Origin: Persicimonas caeni
GTDB taxonomy: Bacteria > Myxococcota_A > Bradymonadia > Bradymonadales > Bradymonadaceae
Length of the DNA: 64,000 bases
Assembly (NCBI RefSeq): GCF_006517175.1
Contig: NZ_CP041186.1
Coordinates: 4,925,074-4,989,073 of the forward strand
Direction: 5' to 3'
Shown: piece by piece, positions 19,545 through 37,287 of the stretch
How positions within the stretch are numbered: the stretch's first letter is position 1
Layout: each line of letters begins with the position of its first letter
Position numbers and translations under genes: made by a program
Notes under the pieces: generated by a model
The model's database searches: none
What the model was told of the DNA's origin: nothing
The model's input: only the letters and a program-made list of their open reading frames with translations

Positions 19545-19678
19545 CAGTGTTCCTCCCTAAAAAGTGTCAATGGGAACATACAAAAGGGGGCACGCGGATA
19601 TCACACAGCCGTTTTACGGGCAACTGCCATAGGGGCTGCGTGTTGCATGGTGCGCGACGGAAGGCCGGCACGAGAAAT

Positions 19679-19708
19679 TTGACACCCTCCGGGATGGGGG
19701 CGTACCCT
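19679..19708 (+). promoter_or_regulatory. candidate promoter for the vWA/tubulin-like operon
   Basis: TTGACA at 19679-19684 is followed 18 bases later by TACCCT. The -35 box is perfect, the -10 box is poor. It lies about 35 bases before the GGAGGG that precedes the proposed start of the vWA gene, so a transcript from here would include that start but exclude the longer upstream reading frame. Confidence 0.35.
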
Positions 19709-19741
19709 TCGGGTGCCGAAACGTACAAATTCGCGGAGGGT

Positions 19742-22543
19742 GTGTTGCACCGATCGTCGCAGAGTCTAGCAGTAAACAAGGGAGCCATCCGAAGCGTGGT
19801 CGCTTGTTTGTGGCTATGGGTCATCTGTGCGCTCGCTCCCGGCGTCGCCAGCGCCCAGTCGACGAACGAACTCTCCTCGGCGCAGGCGCGCACCGCGCAA
19901 TATGTCTTCGTCATCGACGACTCGGGCAGCATGAGCCGGCGCGTGCGCGGCAAGGCGCCCGCCGACCCCGACCGCCTGGCCGTATTCGCGGCGCGCTCGA
20001 CCTTGAGTATGCTCGACGACGTCGACGAGGCGACCGTCGTGCGGCTCAACGGGCCGCTGGAGGGCGAGGCGGTCGTGCCGGTCGCCCCGCTGGCCGACAA
20101 TCGCGCCAAACTCGAAAAGATGCTCGCCCTCGATGGCAGCGTCGCGCAGTATGCCGGCGACCAGACGCCGTGCAAGAGCGCGCTCGACGCGGTCAAAAAG
20201 GCGCTCAACGACGCCTACCGGCCCAACGTCGCCCAGGTGGTCATGTTCCTGACCGACGGCGAATGCACCGGCGGGCAACCGACCGTGCGCGGGTTTTTGA
20301 ACGGGCTCGAGTCGGCCGACGACGAACTCTTCAAGTTCTACCTGCTTCGCTTCGAGGGCCGCGACTATACCCGCGCGCTGCAGAAGCTCGCCGACCGCAC
20401 CGGCGGCATGGCCATCGAGGCGTCGGCGACCGACCCGAGCGCTATCCTCAAGCCGTTTGCGCGGGCGTTGTCACGCTCGCAGGGCTACGAGTCGTACCTG
20501 CTCACCCCGTCTGACCGCATGCTCGACGCCCACCGCGGCGCAAGGCGCGTGCGTCTTCTGGCGGTCGCGCCCGACAAGGGCAAAGACCTCGACTTCAAGA
20601 TCAATCCGGCTCGAAAGGGCGAGACGCCGCAAGTTTTGGGCGACGCCAAGAAAGGACTGCACCAATTCGAAGACGGCCGGCGCTACCGCTACGCGGCGAT
20701 CGACTACCGCCCGGGCACGGTGCCGGTGAGCGTGAACGTCGAGGGCGCCGGGCGCGACTGGAAGGTCGTCGCGGTGCCCGAATATCGCCTCTTCGTCGAG
20801 ATGGACGTGCGCGCAGGCGCCTGTTCCCAGAAGGGCGAGCCCATCCACTACGCCGAGGTCGGCAGCAACATCTGTGCAGAGGTGCGGCTGGTGAACGAGA
20901 AGGGCGAGGTCGTCACCGCCGACGTCGCCGGCCGCGGCACCGAGGCGCTGGTGCGCTACACGGCCGCAGGTGGTGAGGGCGAGGGCGAAGGCGACCGGAA
21001 GCCGCGCGAGCTGCCCGCCAACCGGCAGGGCGACGAGGCTCGGTTCGTCATCGAGCGCGCCAATCTCGAGAAGGGCGACCATATCTTCCGGCCGATGGTG
21101 CGCCTGTCGGTGCCCGGCCAGCAGGGCGCGAGCGTGACCATCAAGGGCGCCGCCGAGACCCTGCAAGTCAGCTCGATGACCATCGAGGCGACGCCGGCGC
21201 GCGTCGACTTCGACACGCTCGTCCCCGGAGCCGAGAAATTCAAGGACATAAAGGTCGGCGGGAACTTCCCGGCCGCGCGCGCTCGCCTCGTCGTCCAGAA
21301 CCGCGAGGACGTGCCCGACTGCGTGAAGTTCGCGCTCGGGGGCAAAGGGGAGGGCGAAGAACAGAAGATCACGCCGGGGCAGTCGTACCAGCTCGGCGTC
21401 GACGTCGACCCTTATTGCGGTGCGTCGTCGTTCACGCGCGATATCCAGACGGCGGTGCGCATCGAGTTCGACCAGTCGGGACAACTGTTGAGCGTGCCAA
21501 CGCTGGTGATTCCGGTCCACTTCGCCTCGGTCAGCGAGATTTCGGTGCCCAAGGCGCTGTCGACGACCCTCGACGCCGGCGACTCCGCCACGCTCGATCT
21601 CGAGCTCGACGGCAACTTCAAAAAGGACGCCACCTTCAACGCGCTGGTGCCCCCGCCCGACGAGCGCGAGCGTTGGCCGTCGAACGCCGACCACCTCGAG
21701 CTGCGATTCCTCGACGGCGACGGCGAGCCGATCCTGAACGAAGACGACGAGCCGGCCCAAAAACACGGGGTGAGCTTTGCGCCCGGCTCCAAAAAGGACC
21801 CGCTTCGTATCGAAGTCGCCTCGGACTCGTGCTGCAGCGGCGGGACCTACCGCACCGAGATCGCACTCGTGCCCACGTCGGGCACCAAAGATCCGATCCG
21901 CGTGCCGGTCGAGATCACCGTCAACGAAGCGAGCGTGTGGAGCTGTTGGGGCCCGGCGATCCTGTGGGCGCTGTTGGCGTTGCTGCTCCTGTTGTTGGTC
22001 CTGTACGTCTACAACATGTTCAACAACAGCAGCTTTCTGAAGAAGAAGCAGCTCATCAACCGGCTCAAGCTGCTCGAATGGGGGCCTACGGGGATGCCGT
22101 CGGCCTCCACCGACGGGCCGCGTCAGATCAAAGAGTTCGTGAACAAGAAATTTACCTTCGCCAACCGCGCGAAGGCCTGGTTTGCCGCCAACCCGCTCAA
22201 GCTCGGGTTGCCCAACGGCTATAAATACGACGAGACTGTGCGTCTCGTGCTCAACACCGACCAGCCGCGGCTGTCGTCGCTCAAGGTCCTCGACAAGCCG
22301 GGCCACTACGACCGGCTCGTCGAAGACCCACGCGTCAACGGGCACGTGTACATCTCGAAGAATCAAGGATTTTACGGCGTGCCGGACCTCGACGGGTACT
22401 TCGGCTCGCTCCGCCACCAGAGCTACATCAGCCCGCCCACCGGCGAGCTCGAAGTGGTCAATCTGAGCGGAGCGAAGCTGGTGCTCGAAGACGACCGCGA
22501 CCGCATGCAAGGTAACGTAGCCGGCTGGGAAATCGGCTACTGA
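19742..22543 (+). CDS. membrane-anchored vWA-domain protein, first gene of the tubulin-like operon
   Basis: The roughly 933-residue protein has an export signal (SVVACLWLWVICALAPGVASA) and then a von Willebrand A domain whose metal site DDSGSMS is near residue 57. A long extracytoplasmic part of beta-sandwich type follows. One membrane helix (ILWALLALLLLLLVLYVYNMF, about 738-760) and a cytosolic tail of about 175 residues end the protein. The frame is open upstream, but the signal peptide places the start at the GTG (19742) or TTG (19745) right after GGAGGG. The domain order lets the protein bind a ligand outside and contact a cytosolic partner inside, presumably the tubulin-like protein encoded 23 bases downstream. 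Confidence 0.8.
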   Translation: MLHRSSQSLAVNKGAIRSVVACLWLWVICALAPGVASAQSTNELSSAQARTAQYVFVIDDSGSMSRRVRGKAPADPDRLAVFAARSTLSMLDDVDEATVVRLNGPLEGEAVVPVAPLADNRAKLEKMLALDGSVAQYAGDQTPCKSALDAVKKALNDAYRPNVAQVVMFLTDGECTGGQPTVRGFLNGLESADDELFKFYLLRFEGRDYTRALQKLADRTGGMAIEASATDPSAILKPFARALSRSQGYESYLLTPSDRMLDAHRGARRVRLLAVAPDKGKDLDFKINPARKGETPQVLGDAKKGLHQFEDGRRYRYAAIDYRPGTVPVSVNVEGAGRDWKVVAVPEYRLFVEMDVRAGACSQKGEPIHYAEVGSNICAEVRLVNEKGEVVTADVAGRGTEALVRYTAAGGEGEGEGDRKPRELPANRQGDEARFVIERANLEKGDHIFRPMVRLSVPGQQGASVTIKGAAETLQVSSMTIEATPARVDFDTLVPGAEKFKDIKVGGNFPAARARLVVQNREDVPDCVKFALGGKGEGEEQKITPGQSYQLGVDVDPYCGASSFTRDIQTAVRIEFDQSGQLLSVPTLVIPVHFASVSEISVPKALSTTLDAGDSATLDLELDGNFKKDATFNALVPPPDERERWPSNADHLELRFLDGDGEPILNEDDEPAQKHGVSFAPGSKKDPLRIEVASDSCCSGGTYRTEIALVPTSGTKDPIRVPVEITVNEASVWSCWGPAILWALLALLLLLLVLYVYNMFNNSSFLKKKQLINRLKLLEWGPTGMPSASTDGPRQIKEFVNKKFTFANRAKAWFAANPLKLGLPNGYKYDETVRLVLNTDQPRLSSLKVLDKPGHYDRLVEDPRVNGHVYISKNQGFYGVPDLDGYFGSLRHQSYISPPTGELEVVNLSGAKLVLEDDRDRMQGNVAGWEIGY

Positions 22544-22566
22544 TCACCCCATCTGAGGAATCACTC

Positions 22567-25500
22567 ATGGCGAACGAAAGAGCCGTTGTCGAAGAAATGC
22601 TGACCAAGCCGAGCATGGTCGCCCCCACGTTGTTTGTGGGCATCGGCGGCTGTGGTTGCCGCATCGCCGTGCGCGTCGCCGAGCACCTCAAGCGCCGCCC
22701 GGATTACAAGGAGCGCTACAGCGATCTCATCAAGGTCGCCCTGGTCGATACCAATATCAACGACCTGGAGACGTATCGCGAGCACGCCGACGAGAGCTTC
22801 CTGATCAGCAACTTCGAGAAGGAAGAGTACGCCAACCTCGCCGCCGGCAAGCTCTTCTTGGAGGCCGACGACTACTTCACCCAGTGGGTGCCGCAGGACT
22901 ACCGGTTCCGCGCGGGCGACACCGCCGGCGCCGGCCAGATCCGCATCGAGTCGCGCCTTGGCTCGTACTACCAGCAGAAGCACAAGGATATGGTGCCCAG
23001 GTTTCGGCGCCTGCTCGAGGAGATGAAGTCCCACGAGCACGGCCACCGACGCCTCGATACCACCGAGATTCGCATCGTGATGTGTTTCTCGAACGCCGGT
23101 GGCACCGGCTCGGGCAGCCACCTTCCGCTGGCCTACACGCTGCGCGACCAGGCGCGTGAGCTCGGCAAGCCGACCATGATCGGGGTGTGCGTGCTCCCGG
23201 CGGTCTTCGAGGACAAGACCGGCGCCAACAAAGACGGCACCTTCGCCAACGGCTACGCTGCGCTCAAGGAGGTCGAGCACCTCATGAAGCTCGGCTCGCC
23301 CGAGTCGCGCTTCTACCCCGAGAACGGCATCGAGTTTCACTACGACCCGTCGGACACCTCCAAGCGGCGGGTCCACCAGCAGCCGTTCAACTTTATGTAC
23401 CTGATCGACAAGCCGGAGTCGTACAGCCTCGAAAGCCCGGTGGACGCGGCCGCAGACGGCCTGTACCTGCAGTTCTTCTCGCCGATTTTCGCCGAGCAGG
23501 CCGGCGACTACGACAACTACACCCAGCACCAGCGCTTCCTGGTGCCTCACGACTTCGAGGCCAAGGGAATCGTCGGCTACACCCAGTATTACGGCTCGTA
23601 CGGCTCGGCCGTGCTGCTGGTGCCGGTGCCGGGGCTGGTCGACTACTGCGCGCGCTCGGCGGCGCTGGGGCTGATGCGTCAGAGCTTTTTGGGGAGCATC
23701 CCGGGCGACGCGACCTACAACGCGCTTCGCCAGAACTCGCGCACCTTCTATGAGGTCACCGAGACCGACGGCGCGGACACCGCGCCCATCCACGTGGCCG
23801 ACTTCCGAAAGAAGGACAGCGAGACCCGAAAACGCCTGCGCGACCGCCTCTTCCAGAAGCGCGTGCGCCTGCTCGCCGCCTGCGAGAACGACACCGGCGA
23901 GTCGGGCCAGTTCATGGAGATCTTCCGCCACGGCCACGGCCCGGGCGCGGTGCCCACGACCGAGGGGGCGATCGACACCGACGACGATCGTCTCGACCGC
24001 GACCGCCAGAACCTGGGCCAGGGCGGCATGAAGTACTCCATCGGCGCGATCCTGCTCGAGGCCGTCTCCGGGGAGCGCTCCGCGGGGCTGACCCAGCGCG
24101 CCTACGCGTCGATCGACGACCAGAAGAACAAGCTCATCCAGAAGGAGACCTACCAGAAGGAGGACTTCGCCTACTGGAAGTCGATCGTGAGCAGCCAGAC
24201 GCGCAAGCTCAAGCAGGTGGGCATGTCGGTGCTCGAAAACGGCTACCGCGACCACCGCACCGACGCGCTGATCCCGGGCATGGACGCGCTCGTCGACCTC
24301 GACTTCATGAAGGACGACGCCGGCGAGGTGAACCTGGCCGCCCAGCGCTACGCGGCGCTGAGCGTGCTCGACGCCCTCAAAGAGGACGACACGCGGCTGC
24401 ACGAGCCCAAGCCCCCGCAGTTCGACTACGCCGATGACGACCGCGTCAAAGACGACGACTTCAAGCGCGTCATCTCGCAGTTGTACGAGTACGAGGCCAA
24501 AAAGGCGTTCTACGAGGTCCAAAAGGCCTTCTTCGACAAGCGCGCGGTCTTCCGCGGCAAGCTCGCCCGCATGGCCGACCAGCTTCGCGGCCTCGAGCAG
24601 GGCTTCGAGGAGTTCGCCCGCAAGCAGGAGAAGAAGATCAGCCGCAAGCGCGTCGACGGCGACGAGTCGGCCAATCAGTACGTCATCGACTCCGAGGCGC
24701 TGCAGATCGAGAACGGCCGGCGCATGTGGGACTTCTATTTCGAGGACAAGATCGCCCCGCTGGGCGAGTTGAGTCTGCAGAGCAAGGAAGTCCAGAAGCG
24801 CCTGAGCGGGGTCATCCGAACGATGAGCCTGCAGAAGAGCATGGGCAACACCGCCAAGCTCCAGAAGATCTTCGAGTCGCTCCTCGAGTACGCCCAGGGC
24901 TTCTTGGACACACATATCGGCGGCGACCCCAAGGCGCAGGATCCCACTCGCCGTGACGGGCTGCGCCTGGCCGACGCGCTCAAGCTCGAAGCCGAGTACC
25001 GCGCGCTCTTCCGCACCAACCAGGAAGAGATCGACAAAGAGGGCCGCAAGGCGATCCGCAACGCCGTGGCCGAATACCGCGCCAAGCCCGACGAAGAGCA
25101 GATCGACCTGGGCCAAGACGTCTACCAGGAGTATTTCCGCGACAAGATCAAGCGCATCGAGACCGAGAAAGCCTCGCTTCTGTGCAGCTACGACGAGTCG
25201 CGCGACCAGCACGGCGGCGTGCGCCCCAACCGCGTCTTCTTGGGCGTGATGGGCGAGGACTTTGGCGACGCCGACATCGAGGGCGCCATCAAGAGCGTCG
25301 AGACCGCCGGCATCAAGTGGGTCACCGAGGGATGGCACGACCCGCACAAGATCGTCTTCTACCGCGCGGTCTTGAACGTGCCCCTGTACGTGTTCGGGCG
25401 CATGAACGAGATGAAGGAGTACTACTACCGCTTCAAGAACCTGGCGAAGCGCTCGAAGGTGCTCCACATCGACAAGAACTGGGAGAACTCGCTGCCCGAC

Positions 25501-26319
25501 CTCGACCCGGACGGCGCCCAGGAGAAGCACCGCCAGGAGATGGTGCGCGAGCATATCATCAACTTCGGCGTGCTGCTGACGGTCAACGACCCGTTCGGCA
25601 ACAACAAGGGCTTTGTGGTCCACCGAAACGGCAACTACTACCTGCGCCCGCCCAACAGCGTGCCCACCGACGGCGACGATCAGTTGGCCTTGCTGGGCCG
25701 CAGCCTCACCGAGGCGATCGAAGCGCTGCCCACGGTACTCCAGGGCGAGAAGGTCAAGTACCTCGCCTTCCAGCAGATGCTCCAGGCGGTCCACGACGGG
25801 CTGGCCCCGCTGGTGCTCGAGCGGGTGGTGCGCCTGCCGTTCAAGTGGCGTCGAAACCGCGACCAGCTTCGCACCCAGTACGGCACCGAACCGTCGGCCG
25901 AGCAGAAGCTCAAGCTCCAAGACTACACCGACTCGTACGAGCGCATGAAAGAGGCGCTCGAGTCGCTGCTCGAGCGGCTTCGCAACATCGAGGCCGAGCA
26001 GATGACCATCGGCGGGGGCTTGGACGGCAATGCCGCAGGCCTGAACGACCATCAAGCCAAGTCGAACCTGCGCCAGTCGATCGAGCTCTTGCGCGGCTTC
26101 GTCGAGGGCTGGCGCGGCATGGAGAACCCCGAGGAGTCGAAGACGGTGCCCCGTGACTTCCAGAGCCTCTTCCAGCCGATGCAGGAGGAGAAGCTCAAAG
26201 ACACCCTCGAGATCTTGCGCTCCGGTGAGATCGATCGGGCGAGCTTCGAGAAGGCGACGAAGAAGCAAGGCGCGCAATCGCCTACATTCTCCTCCCCTGC
26301 GAAGCGAGGGGAGGACTAA
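22567..26319 (+). CDS. large tubulin/FtsZ-like protein (Tubulin_2 type)
   Basis: The 1250-residue protein starts with a tubulin-type nucleotide fold: first glycine loop TLFVGIGGCGCRIAVRVAEHL (about residues 21-41), LVDTNINDLE, and the tubulin signature loop NAGGTGSGSHLPLAYTL with GGTGSG at about 178-183. This matches the Tubulin_2-type (FtsZ-like) family that others have linked to vWA proteins and membrane remodelling. The rest is long and mainly helical, with coiled-coil stretches (about 610-700), so it is much larger than FtsZ. No membrane helix is seen. GAGG precedes the ATG. The last nine residues (SSPAKRGED) are encoded by an intergenic-type hairpin repeat. GTP binding and polymer formation are predicted, not shown. 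Confidence 0.85.
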   Translation: MANERAVVEEMLTKPSMVAPTLFVGIGGCGCRIAVRVAEHLKRRPDYKERYSDLIKVALVDTNINDLETYREHADESFLISNFEKEEYANLAAGKLFLEADDYFTQWVPQDYRFRAGDTAGAGQIRIESRLGSYYQQKHKDMVPRFRRLLEEMKSHEHGHRRLDTTEIRIVMCFSNAGGTGSGSHLPLAYTLRDQARELGKPTMIGVCVLPAVFEDKTGANKDGTFANGYAALKEVEHLMKLGSPESRFYPENGIEFHYDPSDTSKRRVHQQPFNFMYLIDKPESYSLESPVDAAADGLYLQFFSPIFAEQAGDYDNYTQHQRFLVPHDFEAKGIVGYTQYYGSYGSAVLLVPVPGLVDYCARSAALGLMRQSFLGSIPGDATYNALRQNSRTFYEVTETDGADTAPIHVADFRKKDSETRKRLRDRLFQKRVRLLAACENDTGESGQFMEIFRHGHGPGAVPTTEGAIDTDDDRLDRDRQNLGQGGMKYSIGAILLEAVSGERSAGLTQRAYASIDDQKNKLIQKETYQKEDFAYWKSIVSSQTRKLKQVGMSVLENGYRDHRTDALIPGMDALVDLDFMKDDAGEVNLAAQRYAALSVLDALKEDDTRLHEPKPPQFDYADDDRVKDDDFKRVISQLYEYEAKKAFYEVQKAFFDKRAVFRGKLARMADQLRGLEQGFEEFARKQEKKISRKRVDGDESANQYVIDSEALQIENGRRMWDFYFEDKIAPLGELSLQSKEVQKRLSGVIRTMSLQKSMGNTAKLQKIFESLLEYAQGFLDTHIGGDPKAQDPTRRDGLRLADALKLEAEYRALFRTNQEEIDKEGRKAIRNAVAEYRAKPDEEQIDLGQDVYQEYFRDKIKRIETEKASLLCSYDESRDQHGGVRPNRVFLGVMGEDFGDADIEGAIKSVETAGIKWVTEGWHDPHKIVFYRAVLNVPLYVFGRMNEMKEYYYRFKNLAKRSKVLHIDKNWENSLPDLDPDGAQEKHRQEMVREHIINFGVLLTVNDPFGNNKGFVVHRNGNYYLRPPNSVPTDGDDQLALLGRSLTEAIEALPTVLQGEKVKYLAFQQMLQAVHDGLAPLVLERVVRLPFKWRRNRDQLRTQYGTEPSAEQKLKLQDYTDSYERMKEALESLLERLRNIEAEQMTIGGGLDGNAAGLNDHQAKSNLRQSIELLRGFVEGWRGMENPEESKTVPRDFQSLFQPMQEEKLKDTLEILRSGEIDRASFEKATKKQGAQSPTFSSPAKRGED

Positions 26320-26480
26320 GGAGGGGACTCCCTTTCCGCGAGACGTAGTCGAGTGGAGAGGGACCGAGGGAGAGGCCTCCTCCTGAATCCTCCTCCATTT
26401 CGCTTCGCTACATGGAAGAGGACGCCTCTCCTCGGTCCTCTCCTCCTCTTCGCTTTGCTACGAGCGGAGAGGAAGATGTC
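26291..26480. repeat. palindromic intergenic element that supplies the tubulin-like gene's stop codon
   Basis: The element begins with the hairpin CCTCCCCT-GCGAAGCG-AGGGGAGG at 26291-26314, inside the 3' end of the gene. It continues with further CT-rich and GA-rich complementary segments (CTCCCTTTCC.../GTGGAGAGGGA; CTTCGCTAC motifs) up to about 26480. It fills the only sizeable gap (26320-26498) in the five-gene run and may fold into a stem structure that sets the ratio of the genes before and after it. Confidence 0.6.
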
Positions 26481-26498
26481 GAATGATGTAAGGTATTC

Positions 26499-29400
26499 AT
26501 GAGTCGTAGTTCCAAAAACCGAACCGAATACCCCTCGCCGGCCATTGTGGTGGGCGTGGGGCGCTTCGGCTTGGCGGTCCTCGAGCGCCTGGGCGAGGAC
26601 TGGGAGGCGCTCGAGCAGGCGACCGACGACGCGTCGCTCAAGAACCTGCGCCTCGTGCATGTGCGTGCCAAGAGCGACGTGCGCCAGAGCGAGTGGCGAA
26701 AGGGCGAGCGTCAGTTCGTCGAGATCGCCCGCTATACCGGGGACGGCGACCTGCCGTCGCTGGCGCTCGACTTCGTGATCCTGCGCTCGCTCGGGCTGAT
26801 TCGCTACCGAAACGGCACCTACCAGGTCGCCGTGCCCCGCGACGAGGGCGTTGTCGAGGTGCCCTCGGACCGCACCCGCGAAGTCGTGCCCGATGCGGAG
26901 GTCGACGACGACACGCCCGACACCGACTTCGCGCGCCAGCGCTACTTCGACTGGAAGAACCTGAGCCCCGACCCGATCACCTCAGTCGAGCGGCTTCGGG
27001 TGCTCAAGGCGCGTCAGGCCGACCTCGATCTGTTCATCACCCCGCTGGTCAACCGCATACGCCAGGGCCACAGCCCGCGCGCGGTCCTCGCCTGCATCAG
27101 CCGCTGCCGCGCGCTCGCCGAGGGGCGAGACCCGTGGCCGTGGTCGTGGCTGTTTCGGCCGCTCGTGGAGGGCGGGGCTGCGGAGACGGAGGCGGGTTTT
27201 CGCCACGTGCCCGTCGAGCGTGATTGGCTCGAGCCGAACGACGTGCGCGGCTTCCTCGAAGGCTTTGCGAGCGAGCCGCTGGACGGCTGGGCGAAGTGGC
27301 TTCGCGAGCTGAGGCTGCAGATCGACGAGCCGACCCTTGGTGACATCGACCTGGGACAAGGGCGCTTTCGGGTTAGCCTTCCCACGCCGTTTCTGCCCAA
27401 GGCGAGCGATCTGGCCTCGCCGATCATGCCCACCCAGCTTTTGACGGTCGACTGGGAGACGACTGGTTGGGCGACCAAGGAGCTCAACAACGGCGGCTCG
27501 GTGGCCTTCGAGCCGGTCGCGGTGAGCCCGTTTCGCCTCGGGCTCTTCGATCACGACGACGGCTCGCGCATCCACAAGACCAACAGCGGGGAGTTTCGCG
27601 CCCGGCTGCGCGAACTCGCCATTCACGTGCACCGCGGGCTGGTGCGCATGTGGGTCGACCTGCAGCGCGAGCGGGTCGAGTCGCCCGAAGAAGAGCTCGA
27701 GCCGACCCGGCGCCGCGAGAGCGTCGACGACTCGCTCGACCAGTCGCTCGAGGTGCTCGGCGAGCTGTTGGTCCGGCCGCTCATCTCCGAGCGCGCGCTC
27801 GATGTCGACGCCTGCGAGGGCGACGACGAGCTCGACGAAGATCACGACCGCTACGAGGAGCTCGCCCTCCACGACACGGCGAGCACGTTTTTGCGAAAGC
27901 TCGTCGTCGAGGAGGCCGACGCCGAGAATGCCGCGCGTGACGCGCTCGACAGCCGGCTGACCGCCCTCGGTTTCGCGCCGCCGCGCGCCGAAAACCTCGA
28001 GCACAAGCTCTTTTGCGACGTCACGCTCGAGCCCAAAGACATCAACTTCGAGCCCGACGAGAGCAGCATCGTCGACCCGGACGTGCTCAACCGACGCAGC
28101 GAGGGGCTGCTCGAGCTTCGGAGCCTGCTCAACGAGCGCACCCGCCAGCTCTTCGATTTCTCGTTTCTCAAGCAGTACCGAAATGAGCCGGTGCGCCGCG
28201 CGCCCCGATTGTCGATCTACGTGGTGTGCGACGCGACCGAGGCGTTCGCCCGAAGCTCGATGCGCACAGTCTTGCGCGAGATCCACGCCGAGTTGTTGCG
28301 CGCCTACGGCCCCATCTTCGAGACCTACCGCGAGGGCTTCGACCGTGCGCTGTCGGTCGTGCCGATCATCTGGATGCCCCATCCGGCCGACAGCTTCGGC
28401 GGCAAGCACCCGTTGGCGAACCGCTGCGAAGAGGCGGCGATCATCGAGTCGATCCAGGGGATTCGCCGCTGGGTCGAGAGCGTGCCGCGCGGCAAGCGCT
28501 GCATCCCGCAGGTGATGATCAACAGTCGGGTGACCGACAACGCGGTGTTGAGCGTGTGGGACTCGGTGCGTCAGACGCGCGACTTCCTGAATTTCCAGAT
28601 GCGAAACGATCTGTCGGGCGACCCGTGGCTGCGTCGCACGGCCACTGGCACCAAGGGCGACGACTTTTTCGCCTCGTTTTCGTGCCACGAGATCGAGTTT
28701 CCCGCCGAGCGCGCCCGCGAGTACCTGGCGAACCGCTACGCGCGCCACAGCATGAAGCGCATCCGGGACGGCGAGCACGGCCCGCTGCCCGACGTCTCCA
28801 ACGAGCCCATCGAGCCGCCGCGCATCGACGAGTTGGTCGCCGAGCCCGCCGAGCGCTTGGGCGAAGAGACCGGCCGCGCCGCCGAGCAGATGGAGCGCCA
28901 GGTCTTGGGGCGCCTGGAGGCGTCTTCCAAGACGACCGTCGACGAGGTCGAGTCGCTCTTCGACGAAGCCTTCGAAGAACGGCTCCTCGAGCGCATCCAC
29001 GGGCAGTGGCAGAACTTCACGCGCCGCCGCGGCGAGATGGACGACATGGTCGACGCGCTCCGGCGAGATACCTCGCAGAACCTGAGCGAGACCCTCGGCG
29101 TGGTCAAAAAGGCGGGCGACAAGCTCATCGAGGACTACGCGAGCAAAGGGGGGCTCAAGCGCGCCTACGCGGGCTTTGGCGAGCTGCATCACGTCGCGCG
29201 CGACCACCTTCGCGGCCGCGAGGGCGAGCGGCGCTCCAAAGAGAGCTTGTGCCTCGACCACAATATCCCCAAGACCAAGAGCGTCGGCAGCACGCGCTCG
29301 AGCGTGGTCGCCGAGGGGCAGAAGAAGCCCGACTACTCGGCGATGGTCACCGGCCTGGTGATCTGGGGGCTGATGGCGCCTGCGATGGGCGCGCCGATCG

Positions 29401-30641
29401 CTTGGGCGATCGCCAAGGCGCTCGACTTGCACCTCGACCCGAACGCGTTCGAGGTCATCTTGGGCCCGCTCGGGCCGTACGTAGGCGGGCTGGTGCTCTT
29501 CTTGCCCGTCTTCTTTTTGCTGCGCTGGTATATGCGAAAGCATGTCGAGCAACTCCAGGCAGCCATCGACAGCATGGCCGACGCGGTGCGTCGGGTGGTC
29601 GACGGCGGCCAGGCCGCCCTGCAGAGCACCCCGTCGATTCGCTCGTTCATGGAGGCGCGTCTGGTCCACACCGCCGCGCTCGCTACGCGCAGCTACGCAC
29701 GGCAGGTCTACGAGCGGGTGTTGCAGGACCTGGAGCTCGCCAGTCGCCTCGGCCGCAGCATCGACCTGCAACAAGATGTCTTGATGCGCCACGCCGAGGA
29801 CCTCGGCGTACAGCTCAAGATGACCGACCTCGACTCCGAAGAGGGCGACGACGACTTGAGCCGGCTCTTCGACTCGCGCTCGCGGGCTCCCATCGACAAG
29901 CTCATCGAGCCGGATCGTCTCGTCGATTACTACGAGCGGCGCATCGGCGGTGACCACGAGGTCGACGAGATGCTCGAGCGGTTCATCGAAGAGGTCGGCG
30001 GGTTTGCCAACTGGCGGCGCGTCGCGTCGATGTCGGACACGCCCTTGATCTTACGTTACGCGCGCACCCAATTCGACGCGTTGGTCAACCAGCCGGTCAG
30101 CGATCAATTCGTCTTCGAGGACGAGGTGCGCGAGCGGCTCATGGACTTCGTGATGGCCAACTTCTCGAATATCGGCTTCGGCGCGAAGTTTGCGGGTTAC
30201 GAAGGGCTCGACCCCGACGGCATCGACGTGCTGGCGCGCACCGCGCTGGTGATTCATCCCGGGCTCGAGACGGTCTTCAACGAGGCGCGCAACGCGCCGG
30301 ACGCGCCGGCGCGGCTGCGCACCCTCGATGTGAGGACCGCCTCCATCGAGCCGAACTCGGCGTATATGCTGTCGCTCGTGCAGGGCATTCGCCCGCACAG
30401 CGTGCGCAACCTGCGCCGGTTCGAGTCGTTCCACCATCGCGCGCAGATGCCCGACGACCGCACTTTCCCGCTCTCCGGCGAGAGTCACCACGGCGTGTCG
30501 AGCGCGCCGATCAACCACCTGACCGGCTACGATTCGCTGCGCCAGAGCATCAACCGCGGCGTCTTCCACATCGCACGCCAGGTCGAGGCCCAGGCCGACG
30601 AGGCGGCTGCAGCAGCCGGCGAAGGAGGTAGCGATGAATGA
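26499..30641 (+). CDS. giant membrane protein with tubulin-like N-terminal glycine loop
   Basis: The 1380-residue protein opens with AIVVGVGRFGLAVLERLGEDW (residues 15-35), which parallels the first glycine loop of the tubulin-like protein upstream, but I find no GGTGSG loop. I therefore read it as a diverged, possibly non-catalytic partner. A second alpha/beta region starts RLSIYVVCDATEAFARSS near residue 570. Long charged helices (about 770-930) precede two membrane helices (about 948-970 and 990-1010); a further 370-residue helical part follows. AAGG lies six bases before the ATG. Its stop overlaps the next start by 8 bases. No exact family is recognised. Confidence 0.7.
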   Translation: MSRSSKNRTEYPSPAIVVGVGRFGLAVLERLGEDWEALEQATDDASLKNLRLVHVRAKSDVRQSEWRKGERQFVEIARYTGDGDLPSLALDFVILRSLGLIRYRNGTYQVAVPRDEGVVEVPSDRTREVVPDAEVDDDTPDTDFARQRYFDWKNLSPDPITSVERLRVLKARQADLDLFITPLVNRIRQGHSPRAVLACISRCRALAEGRDPWPWSWLFRPLVEGGAAETEAGFRHVPVERDWLEPNDVRGFLEGFASEPLDGWAKWLRELRLQIDEPTLGDIDLGQGRFRVSLPTPFLPKASDLASPIMPTQLLTVDWETTGWATKELNNGGSVAFEPVAVSPFRLGLFDHDDGSRIHKTNSGEFRARLRELAIHVHRGLVRMWVDLQRERVESPEEELEPTRRRESVDDSLDQSLEVLGELLVRPLISERALDVDACEGDDELDEDHDRYEELALHDTASTFLRKLVVEEADAENAARDALDSRLTALGFAPPRAENLEHKLFCDVTLEPKDINFEPDESSIVDPDVLNRRSEGLLELRSLLNERTRQLFDFSFLKQYRNEPVRRAPRLSIYVVCDATEAFARSSMRTVLREIHAELLRAYGPIFETYREGFDRALSVVPIIWMPHPADSFGGKHPLANRCEEAAIIESIQGIRRWVESVPRGKRCIPQVMINSRVTDNAVLSVWDSVRQTRDFLNFQMRNDLSGDPWLRRTATGTKGDDFFASFSCHEIEFPAERAREYLANRYARHSMKRIRDGEHGPLPDVSNEPIEPPRIDELVAEPAERLGEETGRAAEQMERQVLGRLEASSKTTVDEVESLFDEAFEERLLERIHGQWQNFTRRRGEMDDMVDALRRDTSQNLSETLGVVKKAGDKLIEDYASKGGLKRAYAGFGELHHVARDHLRGREGERRSKESLCLDHNIPKTKSVGSTRSSVVAEGQKKPDYSAMVTGLVIWGLMAPAMGAPIAWAIAKALDLHLDPNAFEVILGPLGPYVGGLVLFLPVFFLLRWYMRKHVEQLQAAIDSMADAVRRVVDGGQAALQSTPSIRSFMEARLVHTAALATRSYARQVYERVLQDLELASRLGRSIDLQQDVLMRHAEDLGVQLKMTDLDSEEGDDDLSRLFDSRSRAPIDKLIEPDRLVDYYERRIGGDHEVDEMLERFIEEVGGFANWRRVASMSDTPLILRYARTQFDALVNQPVSDQFVFEDEVRERLMDFVMANFSNIGFGAKFAGYEGLDPDGIDVLARTALVIHPGLETVFNEARNAPDAPARLRTLDVRTASIEPNSAYMLSLVQGIRPHSVRNLRRFESFHHRAQMPDDRTFPLSGESHHGVSSAPINHLTGYDSLRQSINRGVFHIARQVEAQADEAAAAAGEGGSDE

Positions 30642-33600
30642 TATCGGCTACTTCGAGATGATCGTTCGGCTCATCGAAATGCTCATCGACCAGATGTGGC
30701 AGTTCACCGCCGGCGTCTTCGACCTCGCTCGCCATATCGGGCCGCTCGGAAGCGGCATGATCGTCGTGGGCGTCTGCTCGGTGGCGATGGGCGTGGCCTG
30801 GGCGATGCAGCGTCGGCTGAACAAGAAGCTCGAGAAGGACCCCAAGGAATCGGTGTCGATGCTCGGCCAGGAGGTGGCGTTTTCGCTGCCTGCGGTGGCT
30901 CTGTTCATCGTCATGCTGCCGTTTTTGATCATCCGCTGGGTGGTCGGCGCGGCCGGCAAGTTCATCATGTCGTTGGTCTCGTCGAGCGACGACAAGGCCA
31001 AGGGCGAAGAAGAGGAAGAAGAGATTTCGGTCGTCGTCGCCACGATCGGCCCGTCGTTTATGTGGGCGGGGCTGATCGTCGCCGGGCTCTACGTGTTCGG
31101 GCGGGTGAGCGAGCCGCTGCTCCGCTACCAATTCGATCTGAGCGACGGCTACCCGGCCTGGCAGTACCTGATCATGGGCGATCGCCCCGAGCTCGAGTGG
31201 TACCTGCCGCTGGAGCGTTTCCCGTATTTGGGCGCGCTGGTGGCGACCGGATTGTGGATGACGATCTGGTGGTGGGCCGGGCGAATCGTGCGCATCGTGC
31301 TGGGAAGCGAGCTCGGCTCGAACCTGGCGGAGAAGATCGAGAACCGACAGGTCTTGAAGAGCTGGCGCACCTGGTTTGGCAGCCGCATGCTCTTCGAGCC
31401 CGACACGTCGTATCGCGCCTGGGCGAAGTGGCTGCCGGTGGCGGCGGTGCCGTTTTTGATTTGGTCGTGGGGGACGCTGTCGACCGAGCCGTACCGCATG
31501 GGAAGCTCGATGTTTGCGGTGAGCCTTGTGCTGTGGCTGTCGTGGGTCATCCACGTCAACCTGATCGGCCACTGGCATATGGTCGAGGACGAAGCCGAGC
31601 CCGAGCCGGAGCCGGAGGCCCCCGAGGGGCGCGACTGGTCGAACGTGCTCGAGGATTTGCAGGTGCGCCTGCAGGTCGAGGAGCCGTTTGCCTTCGACGC
31701 GCCGCGCGTGGTCGAGCCGCTCGAGCCGGCGTCGCGTGCGCCCAAGCACGGGCTGATTTCGCCGCTGCTAGGCGAGGTTTTGCCCGACGAAGCCGGCCTG
31801 ACGCACATGCAACAGGCGGTGCTCGAGACGCTCTCGCACCAGGCGTACGTGCACGTCGACCCGCCGACGGTCGCAGGTGAGCTCGAGCTCGGGCGCACCG
31901 GCGGCGCGGGCATCGAGGACGAGTCGGGCTTGAGGCACCGCAACCAGGTGGTCCTGGCGCCCGACGGCAGCGGTAAGACGACGCTGGCGATGCTGGCGGC
32001 GTGCAACCATGTGCTCGTGCACACCCGGGCGACGCTGGTAGTCACCCGCGACGAGGCGTCAGCCGAGCGGTTCTGCTCGATGCTTCGGAGCACGCTCGAG
32101 CCGTCGACGCTTCGCTGGACGGTGCGCGTGCGCCAGGCGGGCTCGACGTTGGTCAACGACTTGAGCCAGGGCATCATCCCCGACGTCATCGTCACGAGCC
32201 TTCGCCAACTCGTGGTCGGTATTTTGAACGAGCCGCGCACCTACGCCCCGTTTCTGAAGAATCTGGGGCTGATCGTCGTCGACGACGTCGAGTCGTTCTG
32301 CGGGCCGGTCGAGATCCACATGCAGCTCGCGTTTCGTCGGCTCACGCTCAGGGTGCGCGAGCTTCTGGGCACGCGCCAGCTCGGCGAAGAGAGCGCGCCG
32401 GTGACGCTGCTGTTGGGCGTCGACTCGATGCACGACACGCCCACGTGGGCCAAGACGCTGTGCGGGATCGACGCGGTCACGCGGGTCTTCGAGTACGGCC
32501 GCGCTCGTCGCTCCGTTCCCAGGGCTGGAAGCCCTGCCTCCAAAGCCGACGAAACCGCAAAATCGGAGGCAGGCCATCTTGGCCTGGATAGCGGCGGCCT
32601 CGCCGCCCTGACTGACGCCGAGCCGGGCCGCTACCACCTGTTCTACCAACTGTCGGACTTTGTGTCGGAGTCGGGCGAGTCGCTGTCGGTGCACGATCTC
32701 ATCGAGTCGTGCGAGCGCCTCGGGATTCCGTGGCACTATCGCACGTGTGGCGACGCGCACCGGCGAAAGGGGCGGCAAAACCTGAAGCTCGAGCAGGAGC
32801 CGCAGCACGACGTGAGTTCGCCGCTGGACGCCGGTGTGGTCTTCTTGGCAGGGCACGTGAGCACGGTGCGCCGCGAGATCGACCATCTGTTGCACGCCGG
32901 GGTGCGGTTCCAGCCCGATGGGCAGACGAGTGGGCAGCAGGACGCCGCGAACGACCGGCCGGTGCCGATTGCGTTCGTGAGCGTGGTCGACCCGGATGAG
33001 CGCATGGCGCTGACCGAGCTCAACCCGAACTCGTCGCTGGCCGACGTGGTCGAGACCTTGCCGCGACCGGTGGTCCGCGCGCCGTTCGGACGAGCGGTCG
33101 AGGCGCACCTGTCGGCCGATTTGGTGGACACGTGGATGGAGGTCGCCGATATCCTCGACGTCTTCGGCAACACCACGGTCCACACGCTGGGTCGACTGGC
33201 CGACAGCGGCCTGTTGGTTCACGAGTCGCGCACGGACTTGGACGCCGAGGAGAACGATTACGAGAAGAACATGTACGTGAGGGTGCCGGCCAAGGCGGTG
33301 GCCTCGGAAGAGGGCGAGGAGGACCGGGGCAGAACGGACCGGGGCAGATCAGACCGGAGCGAGGGTGTGCTGCTGCCGCCGAAGGTCTCACAGGTCGAGC
33401 GCCCGTCGGGCGCCACGGTGGCCATCCGCGACCGCACGAACCTGACGATCGTGGAGGTCACCGACCGCATCAGCGCGCGGCATGTGTACTACCCGGGGCG
33501 CATCTTCGAGACCGCGCAGGGACGTTACGTGGTGGTCGGCGCGGCCGCCGACGCGGCCAAGCAGGCCGACGGAGGCGCGGTCAGCGAAAACGACATCTTG

Positions 33601-35499
33601 GTCGAGCCCTTCCTGAACGACGACGTGTCGAGTCCGCGGCGGCGAAGCTGGTTCCGCCCGCTGCGCGCCTCCGAAGCACTCCCCGGCGAGCGCCAAGAGG
33701 GCCGCGACGGCTCGGTCGAAGGCGCCGCCTCGGAGGGCCACGACGCCGAGCCGGTCTTCATCGGCGACTACCCGGTGTCGGTCTCCCTGGGACCGGTCGA
33801 GTGTCGCACGCGCCACCTGGCCACATTCCGCCTCGACCCGCACAACTTTGCGGTGCGCCAAAAGCTGCTCTACACCGCCTCCCAAGCGGCCCACACGGTG
33901 TCTGACACCATGTCCATGTCGGGCAAAAACACGGTGTCTGATACCATGTCTGCAGGGGCAAAAAACGCGGTGTCAGACACCGTGCGCACGGTCGCGCTGG
34001 GCATCATCGCCAACCCCCATCTCGACATCGTCGCCGACGCGGCATGCCCGAAACTCGAGTTGCGCGACGCGCGTCTCATCGCCGCGGCGATGCGCGCGGT
34101 GCTTCCCTCGATGTACCGCGGCTCCGACGTCGACATTCAGGTCGCGCTCCACATCGCCGCCGACAACCCGGACACGGAGTACGTGCTCGGCTCCGACGAC
34201 GGTTTCTACCTGTACGACCCGCATCTTGGCGGCAACGGGGCGGCGCAGGCCATCCATCGCGACGGCGTCGAGCTTTTGCTCCGGCTGTGTCGCGTCTACC
34301 TCGAGCGCGTCCTGTACCACGACCGGCTGCGCGCTCGGTACGATTACTGGGCCAACGAAGACGAGCTCGTTGGGCGACGTCGACGCACGGATAAGGGGCC
34401 TCAGGATTCGGAGCGTGAGCGCGACCAGCAAGCGCGCAAGCGTGCGCTGACTTGGCTCGACAGCAGGCTTCGCCCTGAAGGCAGCGTCACCGGCGGGAAG
34501 CGTCGCGGCAGCTTCGGTGTGGGCTCGGAGGAGGGCGAGGGCGACGTCTTCGACATCGGTCGGTGTTGGTACAGCGAGGACGGCACGGTCACTGACCTCA
34601 TCTGGACGAAGCATCGCTGGATGCTCGACGACGGCACCGAGGCGATGTGCGACGTGGGCATCGGTCGCAAGACGGCAGCTAAAGCGCGAACGTACACGGC
34701 CGAGCCCGACGCTGGCGAAGAGGCATTCGCCGAGCACCTCGCTTGGGTCTCCAAGCAGCTCGATAATCCGGCCTTCGAGCTCGACGACCAGACGATCTGG
34801 GGGCGCCCGGCTATGGTTTGGTCGCTCGAAGCGGGTGACGAGATCCCGAGCGGCTCGGACGCCAATCTCCTGCGCGACGAGGCGGTCATCGCCTACCAGA
34901 AACTCGCGCTGGCCGTCGCTTGCGATAATTACGCGGCCCTGGGCCCCTTGGCTGACCTCTTGGCACAAGAGAGCGACGCGGACCTGACGACCCCCGAAGG
35001 GCGCCTGACGCTCACGCGTTTTGTCACTGATTTCGTGCAGGGCATTCCGTTTGCGTCGAAGCGCCAGCCGCACGCCTTTGAGGGCCCGATTCGCACATTG
35101 CTCTATCGCCTGGGTAACCAAGAGTCACAGACTCTGTTACTCGCGCTGCTGTTGAAGCACGCCGGCGTCGACTCGGGACTCTTTTGGCACCCGGAGACCG
35201 GCCGGATGATGACGGCGGCCGCGCTCCCCAAAGCCAGCACGGTCGAGACCGGCGAGCAGATGCTCACCTGGCGCGAGCGCTTCGGCCGCGACGACCGTCG
35301 GTTGATCTGGGGCGAACTCGAGCCGCAACCGGGCTCGGGAGGCCAATATCCCCGCGTCTACTTGCCGATTGCGACCGACAAGCACGAAGAGATCGCAGGA
35401 GCGCTGGTCGAAAAGCCCGAGCAGTGGGTCTTCTTGCCGCTCGCCGCAGCTTGGCTGCGTCTGGGGATCGAGCAGACGGAAATCCCGGGGGGCGAGTGA
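30634..35499 (+). CDS. membrane helicase-like protein with MZB/DUF1998-like module and degenerate transglutaminase-like domain
   Basis: The 1621-residue protein has about six membrane helices (residues 35-320), then an SF2-type core. The core has Walker A VLAPDGSGKTTLA (near 440), a TRDEASAERFC strand, VIVTSLRQL, and a Walker B-like LIVVDDVESF (near 545) with DDVE instead of DEAH/DEAD. The segment around 930-990 (ATVAIRDRTNLTIVEVTD...YYPGRIF...GRYVVVG) and YLYDPHLGGNGAAQAI (near 1191) resemble the C-terminal half of YprA/MrfA-type helicases. The C-terminal RLGNQESQTLLLALLLKHAG (near 1490) has the shape of a transglutaminase catalytic helix but lacks the Cys. Three REP palindromes are inserted near 1088-1116. 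AGGAGG precedes the overlapping start. A membrane-bound helicase is very unusual. Confidence 0.7.
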   Translation: MNDIGYFEMIVRLIEMLIDQMWQFTAGVFDLARHIGPLGSGMIVVGVCSVAMGVAWAMQRRLNKKLEKDPKESVSMLGQEVAFSLPAVALFIVMLPFLIIRWVVGAAGKFIMSLVSSSDDKAKGEEEEEEISVVVATIGPSFMWAGLIVAGLYVFGRVSEPLLRYQFDLSDGYPAWQYLIMGDRPELEWYLPLERFPYLGALVATGLWMTIWWWAGRIVRIVLGSELGSNLAEKIENRQVLKSWRTWFGSRMLFEPDTSYRAWAKWLPVAAVPFLIWSWGTLSTEPYRMGSSMFAVSLVLWLSWVIHVNLIGHWHMVEDEAEPEPEPEAPEGRDWSNVLEDLQVRLQVEEPFAFDAPRVVEPLEPASRAPKHGLISPLLGEVLPDEAGLTHMQQAVLETLSHQAYVHVDPPTVAGELELGRTGGAGIEDESGLRHRNQVVLAPDGSGKTTLAMLAACNHVLVHTRATLVVTRDEASAERFCSMLRSTLEPSTLRWTVRVRQAGSTLVNDLSQGIIPDVIVTSLRQLVVGILNEPRTYAPFLKNLGLIVVDDVESFCGPVEIHMQLAFRRLTLRVRELLGTRQLGEESAPVTLLLGVDSMHDTPTWAKTLCGIDAVTRVFEYGRARRSVPRAGSPASKADETAKSEAGHLGLDSGGLAALTDAEPGRYHLFYQLSDFVSESGESLSVHDLIESCERLGIPWHYRTCGDAHRRKGRQNLKLEQEPQHDVSSPLDAGVVFLAGHVSTVRREIDHLLHAGVRFQPDGQTSGQQDAANDRPVPIAFVSVVDPDERMALTELNPNSSLADVVETLPRPVVRAPFGRAVEAHLSADLVDTWMEVADILDVFGNTTVHTLGRLADSGLLVHESRTDLDAEENDYEKNMYVRVPAKAVASEEGEEDRGRTDRGRSDRSEGVLLPPKVSQVERPSGATVAIRDRTNLTIVEVTDRISARHVYYPGRIFETAQGRYVVVGAAADAAKQADGGAVSENDILVEPFLNDDVSSPRRRSWFRPLRASEALPGERQEGRDGSVEGAASEGHDAEPVFIGDYPVSVSLGPVECRTRHLATFRLDPHNFAVRQKLLYTASQAAHTVSDTMSMSGKNTVSDTMSAGAKNAVSDTVRTVALGIIANPHLDIVADAACPKLELRDARLIAAAMRAVLPSMYRGSDVDIQVALHIAADNPDTEYVLGSDDGFYLYDPHLGGNGAAQAIHRDGVELLLRLCRVYLERVLYHDRLRARYDYWANEDELVGRRRRTDKGPQDSERERDQQARKRALTWLDSRLRPEGSVTGGKRRGSFGVGSEEGEGDVFDIGRCWYSEDGTVTDLIWTKHRWMLDDGTEAMCDVGIGRKTAAKARTYTAEPDAGEEAFAEHLAWVSKQLDNPAFELDDQTIWGRPAMVWSLEAGDEIPSGSDANLLRDEAVIAYQKLALAVACDNYAALGPLADLLAQESDADLTTPEGRLTLTRFVTDFVQGIPFASKRQPHAFEGPIRTLLYRLGNQESQTLLLALLLKHAGVDSGLFWHPETGRMMTAAALPKASTVETGEQMLTWRERFGRDDRRLIWGELEPQPGSGGQYPRVYLPIATDKHEEIAGALVEKPEQWVFLPLAAAWLRLGIEQTEIPGGE
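33897..33981. repeat. three in-frame REP palindromes inside the helicase-like gene
   Basis: GGTGTCTGACACC (33897-33909), GGTGTCTGATACC (33933-33945) and GGTGTCAGACACC (33969-33981) are spaced exactly 36 bases apart, so the reading frame is kept. They encode the repeated peptide TVSDTM/TVSDTV. The same palindrome occurs at 36671, 36716 and 38454 around the RAYT gene. Confidence 0.9.
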
Positions 35500-36641
35500 T
35501 GAAAGTCGGACTTCTTCACTACTTAGTTGCAACGAGTGTACTGCTCGCGTCGGCATGCGCCCCCGACGGCCCTCGCCAGTTGCCCTTTCCGACATTCGAC
35601 GCCAGGGCTCCGTTTCCGGAACTCTCGGGGCCCACGGGGAATGAGAAGGGCGAATCCGAGGGAACTCCCGGTAACAGCAACTACGAAAAAGCGATCGCCG
35701 AGTCGATGGAGGCGGGTGAGGAAGAGGACGAGGCTGGTGGTGGTGAGGCGCAAACGGTCAAGCGCCAGGATGTGCCTTTGGCCGGCACGCTCGTCTCGTC
35801 GGTGCCGCTCGAATTCGACGAGTGGCAGTGGTCGTCGCAGGGCAACGTCACCATCATCACCCACCGCGAGCCCGGCGCGAGCCAGCCCGACGCGCTCGTG
35901 TACGTCGAGGGTTTCTCGCCGCTGATCCGCATGTTTCCGTCGGTCGAAATCCGGCGATTTCAGCAGACGGTCGACCCAAACCTGGTTCCGTCCTTGGCCT
36001 TGCCAGGTCTCACCGACGGGCTCATGGGCGAGCTGTCGGAGCAAACCGGCGTCGACGTGGGCCGACTGAGCGAGGTGCTCACCCGCGCGGCCAGCCACAC
36101 CATGGGCATGGGGCTGAACTACCGGTCGGGTGAAGATACGTTCACTGGTTGGCAGTGGGTCGGCCACAACGAGGCTCGCGTCGAGCTACGCCTGGGGCGC
36201 ACCGAAGGCGCGTGGAGTTCACGCCCCATCTATGACCGCGACATCTCCAGCGCGCTGTCTCAGGTCACCGAGCAAGTGTCCGGGCTGTCGGGCATGCAGA
36301 CGCGCTACAACGAAGTGCTCGGCGAGCAGGCGTCGCGCAAAGCGTCCGGTTGGCCCGCGTGGATGCTTCTGGGAAGCGCCGTCGTCGAGCGCGACCGCGG
36401 CCTGCATATCGCCATGGTCTGCAAGACGACCCCCACCTGCCCGGTCGCGGGCGAACTCTCGGAGTTGCTCGCCAACATCCGACCGGCTGACGCCGCCACG
36501 GTCGACGTGCTGCGAGATCACGGCTCGAAGACGAGTCTTCCCGACTTTGCCAAGGAGCAAGGCTTACCATTCGTCGAAGGCGACCAGCTGTTGCAACCCG
36601 CCGAGATTGGCGAGCAGCTTCGCAAGGCGCTGGGCGAATGA
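35499..36641 (+). CDS. lipoprotein, last gene of the tubulin-like operon
   Basis: The 380-residue protein has a lipoprotein signal ending LLASAC. A disordered acidic part (to about residue 85) and a globular domain follow. The globular part begins AGTLVSSVPLEFDEWQWSSQGNVTIITHREP and contains TTPTCPVAGELSELLANIRPAD, with one Cys. No known family is recognised. The open frame extends upstream, but the start must be the ATG at 35499, which overlaps the previous stop (TGATG) behind a purine-rich GGGGGGCGAG. The overlap ties it to the helicase-like gene. As an outer- or inner-membrane lipoprotein it could be the periplasmic contact point of the machine. Confidence 0.75.
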   Translation: MKVGLLHYLVATSVLLASACAPDGPRQLPFPTFDARAPFPELSGPTGNEKGESEGTPGNSNYEKAIAESMEAGEEEDEAGGGEAQTVKRQDVPLAGTLVSSVPLEFDEWQWSSQGNVTIITHREPGASQPDALVYVEGFSPLIRMFPSVEIRRFQQTVDPNLVPSLALPGLTDGLMGELSEQTGVDVGRLSEVLTRAASHTMGMGLNYRSGEDTFTGWQWVGHNEARVELRLGRTEGAWSSRPIYDRDISSALSQVTEQVSGLSGMQTRYNEVLGEQASRKASGWPAWMLLGSAVVERDRGLHIAMVCKTTPTCPVAGELSELLANIRPADAATVDVLRDHGSKTSLPDFAKEQGLPFVEGDQLLQPAEIGEQLRKALGE

Positions 36642-36744: not shown

Positions 36745-37287
36745 ATGTCGCAAAAATTTACTGTTCGACGTGGTGATATTGCTCAATGCGACGCCGACGC
36801 AGTGGTCAATGCGTGGAATCGCAACTTCATCCCTCACTGGTTGCTGATTCCTCAGGGAGTTTCCAAGGCGCTGCGAAAGGCTGCGGGGCGCGAGCCGTTC
36901 CGCCAGGTCGGGCGAATGGGGTTGCTGCCGTTGGGTGGGGTGGCGGTGACTGGTGCCGGCGAACTTCCGGCCAAGTACATGCTGCATGCAGCCGCGCTGC
37001 ACGCCTACTGGTCAGCGTCGGAGAAATCGGTGCGGCTTGCTGCCGAGAGCGTCTTCCTCCGTGCAGATGAACTCGACGTCGCTCGTGTCGCAATTCCGCT
37101 GCTGGGGGCGGGAACTGGCGGTGTAGATGCAGCAACGTCCTTTCGGCTCATCTTCGAAGCATGGGCCAAACACCCCCGCAAATATGCCTGCGAGTTGTAC
37201 GTCTTCGACCAGCCCAGCTGGGACGCAGTGCACGGGCGGATCGACGCCGAATATGGGGGGCGCGTAGATCTCGAAATCCAGATTTAG
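36745..37287 (+). CDS. macro-domain protein
   Basis: The 180-residue protein consists of one macro domain, the fold that binds or hydrolyses ADP-ribose and its derivatives. Visible marks are VRRGDIAQCDADAVVNAWNRNF (residues 7-28), the glycine-rich GGVAVTGAGELPAKYMLHAAALHAYW, and IPLLGAGTGGVDAATSF, the phosphate-binding loop. It has no signal or membrane segment. It is encoded just after the tubulin-like operon and two REP palindromes, so co-function is possible but unproven. It is convergent with the RAYT gene. GGGAGGAGC precedes the ATG. Confidence 0.85.
   Translation: MSQKFTVRRGDIAQCDADAVVNAWNRNFIPHWLLIPQGVSKALRKAAGREPFRQVGRMGLLPLGGVAVTGAGELPAKYMLHAAALHAYWSASEKSVRLAAESVFLRADELDVARVAIPLLGAGTGGVDAATSFRLIFEAWAKHPRKYACELYVFDQPSWDAVHGRIDAEYGGRVDLEIQI

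Follow-up and report, generated by a model that had tools for sequence, protein, structure and literature searches.

Five large genes lie in one direction at positions 19742-36641 of the window, by which we mean the whole 64,000-nucleotide stretch analysed here (4925074-4989073 of one 8.05-Mb contig, NZ_CP041186.1, of Persicimonas caeni). They encode a vWA protein (P1), a tubulin of the Tubulin_2 or FtsZl1 type (P2), a protein that looks like a membrane-anchored pseudo-tubulin (P3), a polytopic membrane protein with the fold of the MrfA/YprA helicases (P4) and a putative lipoprotein (P5) (Table 1). Across Myxococcota, P2, P3 and P4 keep this order. An earlier reading made from the letters alone (the sequence-only reading) had described five co-directional genes at this place, and inspection of the open reading frames (ORFs) bore out their positions, strand and spacings. 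P1 and P2 are separated by 23 nt and P2 and P3 by 179 nt, whereas P3 and P4 overlap by 8 nt and P4 and P5 by 1 nt, the P5 start being the ATG at 35499. A dispersed repeat fills the spacer between P2 and P3; its genomic copies often form inverted pairs.

Table 1. Genes and intergenic repeat of the operon, in window coordinates
Feature	Position	Strand	Basis
P1, vWA protein	19742..22543	+	ORF 19547-22543, putative start GTG 19742
P2, Tubulin_2/FtsZl1-type protein, 1250 residues	22567..26319	+	PF13809, E 3.7e-40; GGTGSG
Dispersed repeat separating P2 and P3	26320..26498		at least 100 partial genomic copies
P3, putative membrane-anchored pseudo-tubulin, 1380 residues	26499..30641	+	AF2 model, VIA-align, no GGTGSG
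P4, polytopic membrane protein with predicted MrfA/YprA-fold core, 1621 residues	30634..35499	+	AF2 model, Foldseek, VIA, motifs
P5, putative lipoprotein, 380 residues	35499..36641	+	LASAC lipobox; homologue after P4 in relatives

A tubulin and its predicted pseudo-tubulin partner

P2 scores 138.7 bits against the Pfam family Tubulin_2 (curated cut-off 27), has no transmembrane (TM) segment and carries GGTGSG, the T4 GTP-binding signature, intact. The start codon of P1 is very probably the GTG given in Table 1, which is preceded by GGAGG and followed directly by a signal peptide. Downstream of this come a predicted periplasmic vWA domain (Pfam VWA, E 1.2e-5) with a DxSxS motif (DDSGS), one TM segment near ORF residue 804 and a predicted cytoplasmic tail of ~170 residues; P1 homologues stand upstream of P2 at many loci. 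Both the FtsZl1-type tubulin with GGTGSG and the vWA membrane protein of the sequence-only reading thus held up. P5 matched no Pfam family, but its homologue lies directly downstream of P4 in relatives and in the locus L099 described below. Searching PDB sequences with P2 and P4 as single sequences yielded nothing useful, and a genome scan with P3 on its own gave no relatives, since the back-translated patterns were too specific.

No Pfam family matched P3 either. We modelled its residues 1-1040 with AlphaFold2 (AF2) from a 20-row alignment (pLDDT 70.3, pTM 0.52) and obtained the strand-helix order of tubulin, broken by a long insertion. The predicted tubulin fold occupies residues ~12-755, and a TM hairpin follows at ~953-1009. 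VIA-align placed the model on tubulin with a Z score of 14.8 (3.3 Å over 217 residues), and the first 50 rows that it gave for the model were all tubulin or FtsZ. In addition, the tubulin domain of P2 is matched by two P3 profiles, weakly (14-16%) but in a common register, and three separate P3-type profiles, the third of them built from a cyanobacterial downstream protein, fall on the same P2 columns. P3 is one family across lineages, as judged by profile-profile comparison (99.8%) and cross-clade hidden Markov model (HMM) tests, and a P3 relative is found behind Tubulin_2 in Chromatiaceae (97.8%).

Whereas all 26 P2 family members carry GGTGSG, none of the 31 P3 members does; the first glycine loop, GxGxxG, is retained by most of the latter. 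On the strength of the model, P3 therefore looks like a tubulin-fold protein without the GTP-binding signature, and we class it as a pseudo-tubulin rather than a GTPase because GGTGSG is absent from every member. The tubulin fold would also account for the “similar first glycine loop” that had been noticed in the third protein from its sequence.

Conservation of the gene order

Within the same family, P2, P3, P4 and P5 follow one another in identical order wherever the contigs allow, with stop/start overlaps at the P3-P4 and P4-P5 junctions; P1 precedes this set in G006 and G008, and in G020 it adjoins P5 and is read the other way. When public genomes were scanned with the P2 alignment, 80 loci were obtained, 44 with a strong and 36 with a weaker P2. 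P3 was the next gene at 32 of the 38 strong loci with room downstream, and P4 came next at 24 of the 26 loci with room beyond P3 (in 22 of them overlapping or at most 100 nt away), although the P3 and P4 profiles used for these counts were built partly from the same loci. At the 36 weaker loci, mostly from cyanobacteria and betaproteobacteria, these profiles detected neither P3 nor P4. Because the profiles contain sequences from the counted loci, we also made clade-to-clade tests as a less circular check of the two families. Profiles from one clade recovered the other clades with E values down to 1e-45 for P3 and 1e-90 for P4, and the non-members that they matched were extra copies of these genes and, in the case of P4, canonical MrfA helicases as well.

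Among 237 Myxococcota genomes at least 85% complete, Tubulin_2 was present in 68, P3 in 32 and full-length P4 in 26. When a fragment in G009 is counted, Tubulin_2 accompanies P3 in 31 of 32 genomes and occurs in 38 of the 205 others (Fisher p 1.6e-18, which overstates the significance since the sampled genomes are related to each other), and it is present in all 26 genomes with full-length P4. The lone P3 genome without it, G173, has a marginal P3 match (E 3.7e-4). Far from being rare neighbours, the genes keep the same order in relatives (40-73% protein identity) and well beyond them, as the sequence-only reading had anticipated; the arrangement is therefore more than chance.

Outside Myxococcota, Nostoc-type cyanobacteria carry a 1000-residue TM-hairpin protein behind Tubulin_2 (L142, L147, L174). 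Its profile matches the P2 tubulin domain with 90% probability (E 1.5e-6), and GGTGSG is missing from all seven of these P3 counterparts. Given these loci, the pairing of a tubulin with a pseudo-tubulin may be general beyond Myxococcota.

All five genes are also present at L099 (JAJKHS010000077.1), a contig assigned to an Acidobacteriota metagenome-assembled genome, where P2 is 55% identical to that of the window; this is either a transfer of the whole set or mis-binning. At L093-L096, from another family of the same class, genes for a vWA protein and Tubulin_2 are followed, in the same order, by one whose product has two TM segments and one whose product has five at its N-terminus. Position and TM pattern of the third and fourth genes agree with P3 and P4, but their profiles show no detectable relation and we do not claim them. 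In the betaproteobacterial loci (Janthinobacterium, Massilia), Tubulin_2 is followed by other genes.

A membrane protein with a helicase fold

P4 begins with 5-7 predicted TM segments in its N-terminal 310 residues, continues with a predicted MrfA/YprA-fold core (~335-1235) and ends in a C-terminal region (~1300-1621). Pfam detects DEAD (E 1.6e-7) and, weakly, MZB (E 0.11) in the window protein, with significant MZB matches in relatives (E 1.7e-11 and 1e-9). MrfA provides the best four Foldseek matches of an AF2 model of residues 335-1261 (pLDDT 75.7, pTM 0.80; 6znp, E 2.9e-22). VIA aligned residues 1-895 of this model to residues 6-723 of the MrfA chain with a Z score of 25.8 over 624 residues, and the model spans the complete RecA1-RecA2-helical-OB-CON-DUF1998 fold. 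The membrane helices with an MZB/DUF1998-type helicase core that the sequence-only reading saw in the fourth protein are thus supported, and neither P2 nor P4 turned out to have an unrelated fold.

The helicase core is eroded, however. Walker A (motif I) reads GSGKT here and in Bradymonadia and GSGRT in Polyangia; Myxococcia have lost it. Motif II (DExH) is DDVE here, a Glu-to-Asp change, and is altered in most members, with DELH in L070 only; motif VI (QxxGRxxR) was found in none of 25 members. The four-cysteine zinc cluster is absent from the aligned end of the window's P4 domain, whereas its cysteines are kept in L088 and, by their full-length Pfam MZB match, in L129 and L130. Because motif VI is lacking and motif II altered, P4 is probably a pseudo-helicase and not a motor, and any remaining ability to bind nucleic acid is conjectural. 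A separate soluble MrfA-like gene is present in most genomes, that of the window among them (G000:C1:3465389), with its domain make-up shown for L082/L083.

The dead transglutaminase-like domain that had also been proposed for P4 fared less well. Transglut_core gave weak matches, below the cut-off, in the C-terminal end of two relatives (E 0.0025 and 0.011) and none in P4 of the window. Only the closest relatives share the final ~300 residues of P4, which Lujinxingia-type relatives lack, so that the region is a lineage-specific add-on.

A near-palindromic dispersed repeat, ACACGGTGTCWGACACCATG, lies in frame within the P4 gene (33893-33964), as an insertion not seen in relatives, and again just past P5 (36667-36702). 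The genome holds 177 strand matches to it with at most two mismatches, and the reversed control gave none. Other genes near the operon encode a small free-standing protein carrying a diadenylate cyclase domain of the DisA type (DAC, E 2e-16; 17118-17714), a protein with collagen repeats, DUF7151 and DUF4397 that lies immediately before P1 on the minus strand (17853-19544) and a Macro-domain protein adjoining P5 on the downstream side (36745-37287).

Interpretation and comparison with known systems

We favour a reading, to which we give about an even chance, in which the locus encodes a tubulin module of the FtsZl1 type with its place at the inner membrane, its likely role being to position or remodel the envelope or to link the state of the envelope to a cytoplasmic partner. 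P2 would bind GTP and self-associate. P3 would pair with P2 subunits or filament ends and tie them to the membrane as an anchor, nucleator or cap; we infer that the two proteins bind each other because they share a fold and their genes are constant neighbours. Through its cytoplasmic tail, P1 might couple assembly to the periplasmic vWA sensor or adhesion domain, by analogy with McaA, a protein made up of a signal peptide, vWA domain, TM segment and cytoplasmic tail that acts on the MamK filament of magnetosomes (PMC13170167). P4 would serve as a membrane scaffold with a domain for sensing or tethering nucleic acid or nucleotides, not as a processive helicase, and P5 would provide a connection to the outer membrane or periplasm.

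Several points weigh against this reading. To our knowledge, filament formation by an FtsZl1 protein has never been shown. Foldseek alone gave no significant tubulin match for P3 (best FtsZ, E 0.95), the P3 model is of moderate confidence by its pTM, the topology of P4 is uncertain within 5-7 TM segments, and the locus counts share the partial circularity noted above. Makarova and Koonin, in the main text of PMC2875224, found no T6-H7 elements in FtsZl1. A reviewer quoted with that paper asked how a tubulin in the cytoplasm could act together with partners in the periplasm, and a membrane-anchored pseudo-tubulin together with an McaA-like P1 is a possible answer. More tentatively, and with some doubt, we suggest that FtsZl1 systems at large might be built on two tubulins that always go together, one binding GTP and the other a pseudo-tubulin anchored in the membrane. 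Such a pair would be an ancient bacterial parallel in logic to unequal tubulin dimers, and in Myxococcota it might have taken over a disused MrfA-type helicase to sense or tether nucleic acid at the membrane.

An anti-phage conflict system, in which P4 senses incoming nucleic acid and triggers assembly of the tubulin and vWA proteins to damage the membrane, seems unlikely to us. The main text of PMC12458937 assigns most YprA helicases with conserved operons to defence systems, Kaur et al. (PMC7159879) class tubulin-vWA-GTPase operons with conflict systems, and the patchy distribution of P3 in Myxococcota would fit. However, none of the five proteins matched a PADLOC model at E 0.1, and Pfam found no nuclease, toxin or GTPase family among them. 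Defence-like matches in 79 flanking proteins were isolated, some of them apparently true (e.g., AbiLi/RloB) and others resembling kinases; the flanks are not a defence island, and the neighbourhood thus lends no support to the defence role considered in the sequence-only reading.

Less likely again is a membrane-DNA tether, in which the helicase canopy of P4 holds DNA that P2 and P3 move or place during segregation, uptake or transfer. Tubulins such as TubZ move plasmids, and P4 keeps the complete MrfA fold, which in MrfA binds single-stranded DNA; but the listed neighbour domains include no ParB-like adaptor, relaxase or competence family, and P4 is strongly diverged in Myxococcia. An active P4, working at the membrane as a helicase or translocase driven by ATP, is very improbable: the intact Walker A of the window and the DELH of L070 speak for it, the lack of motif VI in all 25 members, the DDVE of the window and the fate of Walker A in Polyangia (Lys to Arg) and Myxococcia against it. 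Least plausible of all is a machine for predator-prey contact or secretion, since, although the carriers include predatory groups (Bradymonadia, Enhygromyxa, Polyangium and Archangium; for predators among Bradymonadia, a group of Myxococcota, see PMC11509652 and, on predation in Bradymonadales, PMC7188933), tubulin and pseudo-tubulin pairs also occur in Nostoc-type cyanobacteria and many relatives are without the gene set.

The operon can be set beside known systems. Its likeness to McaA-McaB-MamK would be a functional one only, of P1 to McaA, the MamK filament being actin-like and the partner here a tubulin. With the GAP1-N2 GTPase-centred systems (Kaur et al. 2020) it has tubulin and vWA genes in common, and the Firmicutes versions of these even have two tubulin genes; but we recognised no TRAFAC GTPase, YtkA or FNIII component here, and the second tubulin, P3, is predicted to be membrane anchored and lacks the GTP signature, unlike those of GAP1-N2 systems. 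P4 shares the complete fold of the MrfA/YprA helicases (6ZNP; PMC12458937), from the N-terminal region through DUF1998/MZB, and differs from them in its N-terminal TM segments, the loss of motif VI, the changed motif II and its place in a tubulin operon. The main text of the YprA survey mentions no vWA, tubulin or transmembrane protein, and FtsZ only in the title of a reference. A family of helicases known from DNA repair and defence against phages thus appears here within a tubulin operon, as a membrane protein whose motor motifs erode step by step from lineage to lineage.

The closest relatives are the FtsZl1-vWA operons described in 2010 by Makarova and Koonin, who proposed a role in membrane remodelling (PMC2875224). 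As set out in the main text of that paper, they too combine FtsZl1 with a vWA partner and membrane proteins in one operon, the vWA domain being periplasmic with a metal ion-dependent adhesion site (MIDAS). Our operon differs from them in having no OmpA protein, GTPase or kinase; conversely, that main text lists A/B families without recognizable domains but no pseudo-tubulin partner and no membrane protein with an MZB/DUF1998 helicase fold. Our search, confined to open-access papers, found no description of either partner, and the dead-tubulin and dead-helicase partners appear to be undescribed. FtsZl1 has been known since 2010 without a function; its constant downstream partner, on the model presented here, would be a tubulin fold that is anchored in the membrane and has no GTP signature. 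This offers a direct model of how FtsZl1 proteins could reach the membrane and assemble.

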